From an uncultured Erysipelotrichaceae bacterium (GTDB lineage Bacteria; Bacillota_I; Bacilli_A; RFN20; CAG-826): a DNA stretch of 38,784 bases. The notes below the pieces were generated by a model. That model saw nothing but the letters and a program-made list of their open reading frames with translations. It was not told where the DNA came from and made no database searches. The stretch spans positions 1 through 38,784 of the forward strand of contig CAMGZU010000005.1 of NCBI GenBank assembly GCA_946183085.1. The letters are read 5' to 3'. The position numbers and the translations under genes were made by a program. Shown here piece after piece: positions 3,229 to 37,906 of this stretch (positions within the stretch are counted from its first letter, which is position 1; every line of letters starts with the position of its first letter).

Positions 3229-4127
3229 GGATCGGGCCGTTTGCGATGGATTTGATCGTCCGCTTCATGGACAAAAACGACCGGAAAAGGATTTCCTCTT
3301 TCCGCTTCCTTTCGGACGAGAATCATCTTTATGACATCCCCTACGTCGACGATGGGGACGAGCATCACAAATTCGACCTGATAAAGGCTTCGAAAGAGCA
3401 GCGGAAAAACCGCCTCATCATTGATATCCACGGTGGGGCCTATATCTATGGAATCCGCAAAAATAATGCGCCTTTTGCGTCCGTTTTCTGGGAAGAAGGT
3501 TATGACGTCATCACGGTGGATTACCGCCTCGTCTCCAAAGCAAACGGCGTGGATGTCAAAAAGCAGATTGAAGATCTTTTGGCCTTCTTGTCCTTCTTGG
3601 AAAAGCACCTAAAAACCTATGGGTTAGAGAAAGACGAAATCTTCCTTGTCGGCGATTCTGCCGGCGGCCATTTCGCCCTTCTTCTTAGTGAGATCCTTTT
3701 GGACGAAAGACTTCAAAGGGATTGGGGTGCGAAACTCGCGCTTCCCGTAAAAGCGGTCCTTGTCAATTGCCCGGTTTATGACTTCCTTGCCGCGACCGAA
3801 GTGTCGATGATGAACAAGAAAGCAAAGGTCAAAATGTTCGGCCCCCACTTTGAGGAGCTTAATTGGGTTCGTCTGCTGGACCCTAGAATCCACCGGAAGG
3901 CTTTGAAGGTCCCGGTTTTCGTTTCTTCCTGCACCAACGATTTCCTCAAGGAACACTCCGTCCGCGCCAACCTTGATTTTGTGGAAGATGGCATCAAACA
4001 TCAGTTCTTTTTCTTGGAGAGCAAGAAGAAAAAGATCGCCCATGTCCACAATGTGATTTGGCCCGATTTGCCCGAATCGAAAAAGGTTAACGAATCGATG
4101 CTCCGTTTCCTCGAGGAAAACGCCTGA
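3225..4127 (+). CDS. Alpha/beta hydrolase (HSL-type esterase/lipase)
   Basis: IDIHGGAYIYG oxyanion motif and GDSAGGH nucleophile elbow; overlaps upstream stop (coupled). Confidence 0.9.
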   Translation: MRIGPFAMDLIVRFMDKNDRKRISSFRFLSDENHLYDIPYVDDGDEHHKFDLIKASKEQRKNRLIIDIHGGAYIYGIRKNNAPFASVFWEEGYDVITVDYRLVSKANGVDVKKQIEDLLAFLSFLEKHLKTYGLEKDEIFLVGDSAGGHFALLLSEILLDERLQRDWGAKLALPVKAVLVNCPVYDFLAATEVSMMNKKAKVKMFGPHFEELNWVRLLDPRIHRKALKVPVFVSSCTNDFLKEHSVRANLDFVEDGIKHQFFFLESKKKKIAHVHNVIWPDLPESKKVNESMLRFLEENA

Positions 4128-4137
4128 TGATTCGCTA

Positions 4138-4180
4138 TTGAAGCACGCGTGCTCACGTGTGTATATTTATCGGGCAACTA
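4138..4180 (+). promoter_or_regulatory. Candidate promoter TTGAAG-18-TATATT with 12-bp perfect palindrome AGCACGCGTGCT in the spacer
   Basis: TTGAAG 4138-4143, AGCACGCGTGCT 4142-4153, TATATT 4162-4167, ATG 4180. Confidence 0.45.
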
Positions 4181-6792
4181 TGGAAAACGATCAGCAAAAT
4201 CGTGCGCCCTATGTGGAGGCGCTCCGCAAATACATCTCCGAGAACGTCTCGCCTTTTGATGTCCCTGGACATCATATGGGCAACGTGGAGAACGAATTCA
4301 CCAAACTCGTCGGTCACCAAACCTACCGTTCGGACGTCAATGCCCCGATTGGCATGGATAACCTCAGCAAACCTACCGGCGTCATCCTCGAAAGCGAGAA
4401 GCTGATGGCGGAAGCCTGCGGCGCGGACGAAGCCTTTTTCTTGGTCAATGGAACGACCGGCGGCATCTTGGCGATGATCATGACCGCGGTGCGCGCTGGC
4501 GAGAAGATCATTTTGCCCCGTAACGTCCACAAATCCATCATCAATGGCCTCATCATCTCCGGTGCCGTTCCGGAATACGTGATGCCTGCCATCGATAACG
4601 ACCTTGAGATCGCCAATCAACCCAGCGTCGATGACTTCAAGAAAGCCATCCTGCGTTATCCTTCCGCCAAAGCGGTTTTCGTCATCAACCCGACCTATTT
4701 CGGCGGCGTGAGCAATCTAAAAGAAATCGTGGACTTCGCCCATGCCCACAACATGGCCGTTTTGGTCGACGAAGCCCATGGCGCCCATTTCTATTTCGGC
4801 GCCGAAGGCACCCCGATGACCGCGATGGAAGCCGGCGCGGATATGTCTTCCGTCTCCTTCCACAAAACCGGCGGCTCTTTGACCCAAAGCTCCGTTTTGC
4901 TTGCCCACACCCGGATGTTCAGCCGTTATGACATCCAGAAGACCCTCAATATCTTAACCACGACCTCGCCGTCAGCCCTTTTGCTCGCATCCTTGGATGC
5001 GGCGAGGCAATACATGGTCGCCAAAGGCAAAGAACAGCAAGAAGCCGCTTACGAACTTGTTCGTTACGCGACCGAAAAGATCAACAAAATCCCTGGGTTT
5101 TATGTCTCGGGGAAAGAGCACTTCCTGAAGTATGGCTGCTACGACTATGACCCCAGCAAATTGGTCATCTCCTTGGACCATTTGGACATCAATGGCTTTG
5201 AGCTTTATCGCTTGATCAAGGCGGAGTATGACATCCAGTTGGAGCTTGCCGAGACCTATTGCGTCCTCTGCATCTTCGCGATCGGCACCAAAAAGACGCA
5301 CGTCGATCACCTTGTCGCCGCCCTAAGGGCCATCTCGAAGAAGCATTACCACAAAAACGTCGATTACCCCGACCATCATTTTGATTCTTCCTTCCCCTTC
5401 ATGTTGGTTCGTCCTCGCGTCGCCTATCATGCCGCGGGCAAGGTCGTTCCTTTGGAGGAACTCGATGGCCAAATCTCCAAAGAACAGGTCATGATGTATC
5501 CGCCGGGCATCCCGCTTATTTGCCCGGGCGAAGTCTGGACGAGCGAGCTCGTGAGCCGCTTGAAGCATTACACCCAAACCGCGGTCACGATCCTCTCCTC
5601 TTATCCGGATGGCTACGAAGTCATCGACAAAGAGAAGTGGCGTTATTTCAACAAATACGAGAAGAAACTCGAGGACTATTACACCAACCGCAAGACCACG
5701 CCGGCGGGCGACGGTTATCGGATGCCTTTTGAAGGCGATGAGCACCAAGCCACCATCGTTTTGATGCCCTTTCGCCGCGATACTTGGCGTAGAGGCGGCA
5801 GTATCGCGCGCAAGAACTTCAAGCAAGTCATCGCCGCGATCGCCGAGCACGAAAAGGTCATCGTCGGCATCAATCCGCCGATTTATAAGAAGGTCGCCCC
5901 GATGTTCGAGGATATGGAGAACGTCGAGACCATCTCGATTCGCTATAACGACTCCTGGGCTCGCGATAACATGCCGCTTTTCGTGAAAAAGGGCAATTCG
6001 CTTCGCGCGGTCGACTTCCGCTTCAACGCTTGGGGCGGCGACTACGATGGCCTTTATTCCAACTGGAAGGACGACGACAAGATCAGCAGTGTCTTCCTAA
6101 AGCGCTACAAAATATCCGCCTACACCCATCCAACCTTCGTCTTGGAAGGCGGCTCGATCGCCGTGGATGGCGAAGGCACGTGCATCGTGACCGAAGCCTG
6201 CCTCCTCTCCAAAGGACGCAACCCCGACCTCACCAAGATGGAGATCGAGGAAACCTTAAAGGGCTATCTTGGCGTTGAGAAGGTCATCTGGGTGCCGCAT
6301 GGCATCTACCTCGACGAAACCAACGAGCACATCGATAACATGGTGGCCTTCGTTAAGCCCGGCGTCGTCTGCCTCGCTTGGAGCAAAGACAAAGACGATC
6401 CCCAATATGCGTTCTGCCAAGAGACCTACAAAGTCTTGAAGAAGGCGACGGACGCTCAGGGAAGGCCCTTGGAGATCCACAAGATCCTCGTTCCTTCGCC
6501 AGCCCTATACATGACGAAGAACGAAAGCAGGGGCATCGTGAAGGGTCGTTATAATGCGAAGCCGCGCGAGAGCGATTCCCGCCTCTCGGCGAGCTACGTG
6601 AACTTCTACCAAGGCAAAGACTTCGTGATTCTTCCCGCCTTTGGCGTGAAGGAGGATGAGCTGGCCTACAAAGAGATGAAGAAGCTCTTCCCCGACAAGA
6701 AGATCCATCAAATCAACACCAGGGAGATTCTCCTTGGCGGCGGAAACATCCACTGCATCACCATGCAGATTCCCAAGGAGGAAAAGGAATGA
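4180..6792 (+). CDS. Fusion protein: Orn/Lys/Arg (arginine) decarboxylase-like PLP domain + agmatine deiminase (agmatine iminohydrolase)
   Basis: N-half: PFDVPGHHMG, VNGTTGGILAMIM, VDEAHGAHF, SVSFHKTGGSLTQSS (PLP Lys). C-half from about 5700: GYRMPFEGDEHQATIVLMPFRRDTWRRGG, WARDNMPLFV, FNAWGGDYDG, LEGGSIAVDGEGT, DETNEHIDNMVAFVKPG, LGGGNIHCITMQ (catalytic Cys). One uninterrupted frame. The ORF track starts at TTG 4138; ATG 4180 is preferred. Confidence 0.93.
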   Translation: MENDQQNRAPYVEALRKYISENVSPFDVPGHHMGNVENEFTKLVGHQTYRSDVNAPIGMDNLSKPTGVILESEKLMAEACGADEAFFLVNGTTGGILAMIMTAVRAGEKIILPRNVHKSIINGLIISGAVPEYVMPAIDNDLEIANQPSVDDFKKAILRYPSAKAVFVINPTYFGGVSNLKEIVDFAHAHNMAVLVDEAHGAHFYFGAEGTPMTAMEAGADMSSVSFHKTGGSLTQSSVLLAHTRMFSRYDIQKTLNILTTTSPSALLLASLDAARQYMVAKGKEQQEAAYELVRYATEKINKIPGFYVSGKEHFLKYGCYDYDPSKLVISLDHLDINGFELYRLIKAEYDIQLELAETYCVLCIFAIGTKKTHVDHLVAALRAISKKHYHKNVDYPDHHFDSSFPFMLVRPRVAYHAAGKVVPLEELDGQISKEQVMMYPPGIPLICPGEVWTSELVSRLKHYTQTAVTILSSYPDGYEVIDKEKWRYFNKYEKKLEDYYTNRKTTPAGDGYRMPFEGDEHQATIVLMPFRRDTWRRGGSIARKNFKQVIAAIAEHEKVIVGINPPIYKKVAPMFEDMENVETISIRYNDSWARDNMPLFVKKGNSLRAVDFRFNAWGGDYDGLYSNWKDDDKISSVFLKRYKISAYTHPTFVLEGGSIAVDGEGTCIVTEACLLSKGRNPDLTKMEIEETLKGYLGVEKVIWVPHGIYLDETNEHIDNMVAFVKPGVVCLAWSKDKDDPQYAFCQETYKVLKKATDAQGRPLEIHKILVPSPALYMTKNESRGIVKGRYNAKPRESDSRLSASYVNFYQGKDFVILPAFGVKEDELAYKEMKKLFPDKKIHQINTREILLGGGNIHCITMQIPKEEKE

Positions 6793-7649
6793 AAAAACGT
6801 TATTCGGTTGCCCAGATGGCGATGTCCCCCATCTATGAGGAGAACATCAAAAAAGCGGACGCTTTGATTGAAAAAGCGGCGAAGGAAGGAAGCGCCTTGC
6901 TCCTTCTTCCCGAACTCTTTGAAGGCCCCTATTTCTGCCAGATTGAGGACTATGAGAAGTTCGCTTTGGCGGAGGAGGCCTCCAATTCCAAAACCTTGAA
7001 GCATTTCCAGGAGATGGCGAAGAAACATCATATCGTTTTGCCGATCTCCTTCTTCGAAAAAAGCGGACCCGTATACTTCAATTCCCTCGCGATGATTGAC
7101 GCGGATGGCAAGATTTTGGGCATCTACCGCAAATCCCATATCCCAACTGGCGAATGCTACGAAGAGAAGTTCTATTTCTCCCCGGGCGACACCGGATTCA
7201 TGGTCTTTGATACCCAAGCCGGCCGCGTTGGCGTGGCGATCTGCTGGGACCAGTGGTTCCCGGAAGCCGCGCGTGTCATGGCCTTAAAGGGCGCCCAGAT
7301 TCTTATGTACCCGAGCGCCATCGGCTCCGAACCCATCTTGCCGCGCGACAGCAAATCGCATTGGCAGAACACGATGAAGGGCCATGCGGCCGCCAATGTC
7401 ATGCCGCTTCTTGCCTGCAACCGCGTCGGCGTGGAGAAGGCGGGCAATAGCTCCATGCAGTTCTTTGGTTCTTCCTTCATCGCCGATTCCCATGGCGACT
7501 TCGTCAAGGAAATGGGCCGTGAGGAAGAAGGCATCATCACGGCTGAATTTGACTTGGAGGTCAGCGACAAAGAGCGGTCCGATTGGGGCGTCTTCCGCGA
7601 TCGCCGCACCGACTTATACTCGCCGATCCTTAAGCTATCGGACAAATAA
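6789..7649 (+). CDS. aguB: N-carbamoylputrescine amidase (carbon-nitrogen hydrolase/nitrilase superfamily)
   Basis: LLLLPELFEGPYFCQ (Glu), YRKSHIPTGECYEEKFYFSPG (Lys), VGVAICWDQWFPEAAR (Cys). ATGA overlap with the upstream fusion gene. Confidence 0.92.
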   Translation: MKKRYSVAQMAMSPIYEENIKKADALIEKAAKEGSALLLLPELFEGPYFCQIEDYEKFALAEEASNSKTLKHFQEMAKKHHIVLPISFFEKSGPVYFNSLAMIDADGKILGIYRKSHIPTGECYEEKFYFSPGDTGFMVFDTQAGRVGVAICWDQWFPEAARVMALKGAQILMYPSAIGSEPILPRDSKSHWQNTMKGHAAANVMPLLACNRVGVEKAGNSSMQFFGSSFIADSHGDFVKEMGREEEGIITAEFDLEVSDKERSDWGVFRDRRTDLYSPILKLSDK

Positions 7650-37197: not shown

Positions 37198-37273
37198 GGG
37201 GCATTAGCTCAGCTGGGAGAGCGCCTCGTTCGCAACGAGGAGGTCGGCGGTTCGATCCCGCTATGCTCCACCA
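37198..37273 (+). tRNA. tRNA-Ala (CGC anticodon), CCA encoded
   Basis: Cloverleaf GGGGCAT/ATGCTCC with G3:U70, D-arm GCTCAGCTGGGAGAGC, anticodon arm CCTCG-TTCGCAA-CGAGG, T-arm GGCGGTTCGATCCCGCT, CCA. Confidence 0.96.
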
Positions 37274-37287
37274 TTTTTTATTTCTCC

Positions 37288-37371
37288 TGTCGTCGTCCAA
37301 ACCCACTTATCCAAAGTTGGACAAACGGCGGCATCCAGATAGATAGGTCCTTTCGGGGGCCTTTTCTTGTG
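37288..37371. repeat. 84-bp direct repeat, copy 1 (contains a terminator-like hairpin)
   Basis: tgtcgtcgtccaaacccacttatccaaagttggacaaacggcggcatccagatagataggtcctttcgggggccttttcttgtg; 2 mismatches to copy 2. Confidence 0.97.
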
Positions 37372-37427
37372 ACACTTCTGTGACACTCATTGCGATAATC
37401 TACAATTAACCAAGGGGCATTTTGATA

Positions 37428-37733
37428 ATGAAAGAAGAATTATTAAAAGGTTTAACTGAAGAACAAATCGCTAAAGTCAAGGCGTGTAAAAACCAAGAGG
37501 AAATACTTCAACTTGCCAAAGAAGAAGGTATTGAATTAAACGAAGCACAATTAGAAGCTGTTAATGGTGGAGGATGCATGACTGAAGCTGTAAAACCTGC
37601 GCCATGTTGCCCATATTGCGATAGTACACATCGTGAACTAGTACAATATCATGAGAACTACACTACCTATCTATGTAGTGCCTGCCATCGCCAATATAAG
37701 TACTATGATAATGGCAGAAGCGAAAAAATGTAA
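37428..37733 (+). CDS. Nif11-like/double-Gly leader peptide precursor-like protein with CPYC...CSAC zinc-ribbon-like C-terminus
   Basis: MKEELLKGLTEEQIAKVKACKNQEEILQLAKEEGIELNEAQLEAVNGGGCMTEAVKPAPCCPYCDSTHRELVQYHENYTTYLCSACHRQYKYYDNGRSEKM; visibly AT-rich. The track starts at TTG 37422. Confidence 0.75.
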   Translation: MKEELLKGLTEEQIAKVKACKNQEEILQLAKEEGIELNEAQLEAVNGGGCMTEAVKPAPCCPYCDSTHRELVQYHENYTTYLCSACHRQYKYYDNGRSEKM

Positions 37734-37788
37734 TTAACGTTTAACAACATACCAATAGAAAGCGCTTTAAATGGACTGACACATCTGT

Positions 37789-37872
37789 TGTCGTCGTCCA
37801 AACCCACTTATCCAAAGTTGGACAAACGGCGGCATCCAGATAGATAGGTCCCTCCGGGGGCCTTTTCTTGTG
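37789..37872. repeat. 84-bp direct repeat, copy 2
   Basis: 82/84 identical to 37288-37371 by hand alignment. Confidence 0.97.
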
Positions 37873-37875
37873 CCT

Positions 37876-37906
37876 CGAACTCGCCGACCTCTTCGTTGCA
37901 AACAAG
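37876..37906 (-). pseudogene. tRNA-Ala-like remnant (anticodon arm to T-arm) on the minus strand
   Basis: cgaacTcgccgacctcttcgttgcaaacaag aligns to the reverse complement of the local tRNA-Ala (cgaac-cgccgacctcctcgttgcgaacgag) with 3 substitutions and 1 insertion. Confidence 0.6.

Follow-up and report, generated by a model that had tools for sequence, protein, structure and literature searches.

The window (the whole stretch of DNA analysed here, 38,784 nucleotides from an uncultured Erysipelotrichaceae bacterium) contains a small precursor gene whose product is, on the most likely reading and one that we hold to be fairly probable from its sequence and that of its relatives, an unmodified zinc-ribbon miniprotein that carries a Nif11-like export tag, is cleaved at a Gly-Gly site and is exported in trans. 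The open reading frame had been called in a first-pass annotation of the window and is a genuine gene, with an intact frame, a plausible ribosome-binding site, paralogues and more distant relatives; a chance open reading frame is ruled out by four intact paralogues in the same genome (E-values 5e-18 to 3e-16) and 281 distinct relatives. The features of the locus are collected in Table 1.

Table 1. Features of the precursor gene and its surroundings, in window coordinates
Feature	Position	Strand	Basis or remarks
tRNA-Ala gene with anticodon CGC, 5' of the insertion	37198..37273	+	ARAGORN; Rfam RF00005, 63 bits
First copy of the 89-nt direct repeat; terminator-like hairpin downstream of the tRNA	37283..37371	+	96% identity with the second copy
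Regulon box TGTGACA-CTTC-TGTGACA, heptamer direct repeat with 11-bp period	37368..37385	+	Motif scan of the genome and relatives
-10 hexamer TAATCT, 10 nt past the second heptamer	37396..37401	+	Conserved in relatives at equal spacing
Probable ribosome-binding site AAGGGG	37412..37417	+	Read from the sequence
Precursor gene	37428..37733	+	ATG start, TAA stop, 101 aa; frame intact
Nif11-like leader, residues 1-48, Gly-Gly end	37428..37571	+	PF07862 and TIGR03798 matches; Leu-12, Leu-7, Val-4
Core, 53 aa, GC start; Cys50 just past the Gly-Gly, putative ribbon Cys61/64/83/86	37572..37730	+	Cysteine conservation in the family; AlphaFold2
Second copy of the 89-nt direct repeat; terminator-like, downstream of the gene	37784..37872	+	Repeat search
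Inverted tRNA-Ala fragment adjoining the repeat	37882..37906	-	88% complementary to the tRNA

The N-terminal half of the protein had been likened to Nif11-type leaders, and Nif11 is indeed the top match in both family libraries, though below the curated cut-offs of each (PF07862: E 8.5e-4, 20.0 bits against a cut-off of 23.8; TIGR03798: E 3.5e-4, 20.8 bits against 32.3). We therefore describe the leader, by these matches, as Nif11-like and not as a member of the Nif11 family. At E<=0.01 the two models match 69 (PF07862) and 66 (TIGR03798) of 76 relatives. The Gly-Gly pair closes the leader in all 249 zinc-ribbon precursors, and the residues ahead of it are strongly constrained (Leu at -12 in 100%, Leu at -7 in 96%, Val or Ile at -4 in 97%). 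These same leader positions are bound in the groove of LahT, a C39 peptidase (PMC6363468), and the window leader carries a suitable residue at all three. Leaders share a mean pairwise identity of 71% and cores 34% (22% once the shared cysteines are excluded), so that the double-glycine leader end and variable core of Nif11 leader peptides are both present. Leader residue Cys20 is kept in 99% of precursors of the zinc-ribbon type, and some short-core peptides (described below) have Phe in that column. A lipoprotein reading of the GG-x-C sequence was ruled out by eye, the leader having no hydrophobic stretch.

The remainder of the protein opens with GC and contains CCPYC-N18-CSAC, exactly as first described, and thus presents two CxxC knuckles. 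Cores of the family match several Pfam zinc ribbons and resemble those of the TFIIS, TFIIB and IS1595 types. AlphaFold2 predicts residues 61–101 with confidence (pLDDT about 84–92) as a beta-rich ribbon with beta strands, and the leader as loose; the full-length predicted structure has no significant match in the PDB. From sequence families and the cysteine pattern, the core is probably a zinc ribbon and a putative Zn(II) binder. The four ribbon cysteines are 100% conserved in the 249 zinc-ribbon precursors, a figure that follows from the selection of that set by its CxxC pairs; the cysteine past the Gly-Gly is conserved in 98%. The first cysteine lies 0–4 residues past the Gly-Gly in 269 of 269 precursors, zinc-ribbon and short-core types alike. 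In those pairs that could be compared, the pN/pS of the cores is 0.12–0.40, which indicates that each core type is maintained and, being below 1, speaks against positive selection on the cores of these pairs.

A search of the same genome for leader paralogues, as had been proposed, returned the four intact genes mentioned above. Those on contigs C73, C17 and C96 encode a leader, a Gly-Gly, an early cysteine and a C-x2-C...C-x2-C core; the fourth, on contig C18, encodes a short core that reads GG-VCSSEKETEKKDEEDKHRKIDS. At its edge, contig C10 holds a fragment of a further leader gene. A scan of public genomes turned up 78 loci. Most of them carry the label Erysipelotrichaceae, Bacilli or Bacillales and some Lachnospiraceae or Pseudobutyrivibrio, and those whose title tells come mostly from ruminants. 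Altogether 281 distinct leader peptides were gathered, mostly from rumen Bacilli, and 249 of them have a CxxC...CxxC core. In a phylum-wide sample of 392 genomes relatives were found in the same family only, and there were none in viral contigs, phages or plasmids. The zinc-ribbon precursor genes often stand in tandem arrays; no immunity gene was noticed next to these, which weakens a bacteriocin role. The literature searched (most subscription journals lay outside its coverage) held no work that joins Nif11 to a zinc ribbon, and searches for a zinc ribbon with a double-glycine bacteriocin, or with a secreted peptide and a leader peptide, gave a Treponema paper only. As far as these searches show, the family is large and has no earlier description.

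A search of the genome for C39 peptidases found none on the contig of the window and one within an exporter on contig C18. The C18 locus comprises a response regulator, a HipA-like protein, a regulon box, the short-core leader peptide, a radical SAM/SPASM enzyme, a short HlyD-like protein, a C39-ABC protein, a second ABC protein and a SpoIIE-type phosphatase. The C39-ABC protein narrowly misses the TIGR03796 cut-off (833 bits against 853), which its orthologue in genome G100 passes at 855 bits, and the next ABC proteins in a sample of 116 genomes score at most 356 bits; the second ABC protein narrowly misses TIGR03797 (681 bits against 709). For each of the two proteins the model named is by far the best. 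By these scores the pair is an NHLM-type exporter whose cut-offs are just missed. Much of the C18 gene order recurs in relatives. The HipA-like protein between the response regulator and the precursor (L022:9916-11163, - strand) shows a weak HipA_C match in 4 of 5 relatives, and contig C15 encodes a second C39-domain membrane protein (L026:2999-4246, - strand) on an open reading frame that by eye has no ABC ATPase domain.

Exporter and precursor also co-occur. Strong zinc-ribbon precursors are present in 14 of 116 genomes sampled from the family and a near-full-length NHLM-type C39-ABC protein in 15, with both in 13, the precursor only in 1, the exporter only in 2 and neither in 100 (Fisher p 2.6e-14, kinship not corrected for). 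The nine same-genus genomes of the sample divide into three with both and six with neither. The one zinc-ribbon genome whose assembly contains no exporter (G015) is 79% complete, and in the two exporter-only genomes (G039 and G021) the transporter is more distant, at 46–48% identity to the C18 protein as against 77–86% in the others. The first-pass annotation had offered, as one option, an orphan precursor processed in trans: processing in trans is supported by the C39-ABC exporter on C18, and the orphan status is contradicted by the paralogues and the wider family. Its other option of a secreted metal-binding peptide, which we merge with the first, gains support as a prediction from the same exporter and the three zinc-ribbon paralogues. 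It had named the joint absence of a C39 exporter and of leader homologues from the genome as grounds for rejection, and both are present.

As to the radical SAM enzymes for which a check had been proposed, a single one lies at the C18 locus, beside the paralogous short-core peptide, with a canonical CxxxCxxC motif and SPASM cysteines. None of the radical SAM equivalog models for known peptide maturases matches it at cut-off, and next to the loci that we read we noticed no enzyme for lanthionine or azole formation. In several relatives the short-core peptide lies directly 5' of the radical SAM gene; peptides of this kind beside the enzyme are encoded at L022:9652-9861 (- strand), L186, L187, L190, L191 and L193, and most follow the pattern GG-(A/G/V)C...K(R/K)KI(D/E)(D/S). 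A further short-core precursor (L084:4573-4761, + strand) stands by a HipA-like gene, with a 1025-aa open reading frame at the place expected for the radical SAM gene. The short-core peptide, present at about one per genome, is probably a radical-SAM-modified peptide of a kind not described before, and it may be the signal that induces the regulon described below. The same enzyme might act in trans, guided by the leader, on the post-Gly-Gly cysteine of the zinc-ribbon precursors before their export, which would make them modified RiPPs. The near-invariant placement of that cysteine in both core types would suit such a reaction, as would the single family to which the leaders belong and the position of an enzyme with canonical CxxxCxxC and SPASM cysteines beside the exporter in many genomes, and Nif11 leaders guide modification in other systems (PMC2887384). 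We nevertheless think this, the leading alternative, unlikely: wherever an adjacent peptide was found the enzyme adjoins the short-core one, the zinc site requires free thiols, and the enzyme falls outside the known maturase models.

The window gene shares a promoter element with roughly half of the related precursor genes. A box precedes the window gene and three of its four paralogues (those on C17, C18 and C96), and scanning of the genome for TGTGRCA-N4-TGTGRCA with at most one mismatch gave 11 sites, against none for a reversed-pattern control. Within two mismatches the box lies 5' of 147 of the 271 relatives that have full upstream sequence (shuffled sequences: 0/271), its start nearly always 52–67 nt before the ATG; no individual box could be recognised for about 45% of relatives, some of which are perhaps later genes of an operon. 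The 112 exact cases have an extended -10 element (TGnTAnnnT) at a fixed 10 nt past the box, with its T, A and T kept in 110, 112 and 111 relatives, respectively. Ten exporter-positive genomes contain 135 box sites and ten negative genomes 6. In eight genomes, leader genes lie directly downstream of 71 of 118 boxes. Of the other targets 16 were sampled, and 12 of these have a hydrophobic N-terminus (background 21%), lipoproteins and large secreted proteins among them. The response regulator of the C18 locus is of the OmpR/PhoB type by fold search (Pfam recognises its receiver domain only, and no BTAD domain) and is the leading candidate for binding the box.

Four large box-controlled proteins of the same genome (L023:2120-3244 and 3840-6470, + strand; L024:2312-3889, + strand; L025:4755-5921, - strand) have in common a C-terminal region of ~130 aa and show neither a signal sequence nor a convincing Pfam match.

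Since part of the regulon in this genome is not secreted, zinc ribbons are usually intracellular and the cores resemble ribbons of the TFIIS, TFIIB and IS1595 types, the precursor could instead be a cytosolic zinc-ribbon protein whose leader stays uncut and has been put to another use, in docking or regulation. We judge this improbable, because it leaves without reason the strict Gly-Gly and C39-recognition residues, the co-occurrence with a C39 exporter and the co-regulation with secreted proteins.

The copy in the window is a recent 501-bp insertion behind a tRNA-Ala gene: it is AT-rich (37% GC, against 50–55% in the paralogues), flanked by direct repeats and absent from this site in two same-genus genomes (G102 and G109), which have the same tRNA and downstream sequence with a single repeat copy and no gene. 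The 89-nt repeat ends in a terminator-like stem, and similar repeats adjoin zinc-ribbon genes in the arrays of G109, one of them abutting a box. This arrangement suggests that one gene unit was gained laterally by recombination within a common terminator repeat. In Rfam the tRNA alone scores above its threshold, and the repeat belongs to no known RNA family; an integron-type attC site (the repeat contains GTTGGAC) was ruled out by eye, the hairpin being too short. The inverted tRNA-Ala fragment beside the repeat is also seen in other genomes of the genus (G102, G109, G118 and G132; loci L170, L178, L179 and L184). The composition, repeats and patchy presence of the copy would also fit a passenger, recently acquired and idle in its present host while the family functions elsewhere. 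This seems to us very unlikely, in that the frame, box, -10 element, ribosome-binding site and terminator are intact and the four ribbon cysteines, the post-Gly-Gly cysteine and the leader cysteine are all kept.

Elsewhere in the window (4138-7649, + strand) we noted by eye a PLP decarboxylase fused to an agmatine deiminase (884 aa) and followed by a carbamoylputrescine amidase, which would lead from arginine to putrescine in two genes.

We believe that the leader most plausibly tags for export a small zinc-ribbon miniprotein that is probably left unmodified. The OmpR-type winged-helix response regulator from the exporter locus would probably bind the heptamer direct repeat, so that scattered precursor genes are switched on along with secreted proteins; the C39 peptidase of the NHLM-type ABC pair would recognise the leader, cut past the Gly-Gly and export the ~53-aa core; and outside, in an anaerobic habitat, the four thiolates could hold a zinc. 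We infer the pairing of regulator with box, that of exporter with peptide and the holding of zinc by the core. A pre-folded zinc ribbon might resist export, and some box targets of this genome are large and lack a signal sequence; we count both against the export of an unmodified ribbon. We can only guess at a role outside the cell, such as antagonism or signalling among neighbouring cells. More broadly, and with somewhat less than even confidence, we propose that secreted natural products guided by such leaders form a class of their own, in which the product is a folded metal-binding miniprotein. One genome would encode up to dozens of different zinc-ribbon peptides, which would be induced along with the exoproteome, cut at Gly-Gly, released by one NHLM-type exporter and exchanged as gene units between array and chromosomal sites via a shared terminator repeat.

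None of the three elements, Nif11-type leader, NHLM exporter and zinc ribbon, is new in itself; as far as our searches show, their union in a large regulon is undescribed. The cores known behind RiPP and bacteriocin leaders are short ones that are modified or membrane-active, and a leader of that kind is joined here to a compact, predicted metal-binding fold in hundreds of natural variants from rumen-type bacteria. If export is true, these bacteria release large sets of zinc-ribbon miniproteins, which would be new material for signalling, for antagonism or for the capture of metals in the rumen and, through their conserved tag, a natural scaffold for display. The box, regulator, exporter and substrates form a testable regulon for uncultured lineages, and leader, ribbon and box together provide a search key with which many small 'hypothetical' genes could be annotated.

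Among known systems, double-glycine class II bacteriocins and pheromones likewise combine a Gly-Gly leader, a C39 exporter and a direct-repeat regulon promoter. Unlike either of these, the present precursors have a Nif11-like leader of ~48 aa, a core with a predicted metal-ribbon fold and no immunity gene that we noticed. Small CPxCG zinc-finger proteins have a similar CPxCG...CxxCG ribbon of about 40–50 aa, but to our knowledge they have no leader and no Gly-Gly site and act inside the cell. SARP-type promoters of Streptomyces have heptameric direct repeats with a 4-nt spacer near the promoter (PMC10972967); the heptamers here have the same spacer and a fixed distance to the -10 element, and the candidate regulator has an OmpR-type winged helix, but it has no Pfam-recognised BTAD and the -10 element lies 10 nt from the repeat, and 'SARP-like' refers to the layout of the box only. 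Nif11-derived precursors (N11P; prochlorosins and LahA1-9) share a long Gly-Gly leader, large paralogue sets, a conserved leader with a variable core, and a C39-ABC exporter with one locus serving many precursors (PMC2887384, PMC6363468). The present family differs from them in its zinc-ribbon cores kept by four cysteines, its conserved leader cysteine, the lack of a noticed lanthionine or azole enzyme, and a window protein that falls below both cut-offs. The closest counterpart of the C18 locus is the NHLM export system (TIGR03794/03796/03797; Haft et al. 2010, PMC2887384), likewise a C39-ABC protein, a second ABC protein and an HlyD-like protein correlated with leader peptides, from which it differs in a very short HlyD-like protein (128 aa, 24 bits) and in additionally encoding a radical SAM enzyme and a HipA-like protein as well as a response regulator and a SpoIIE-type phosphatase.
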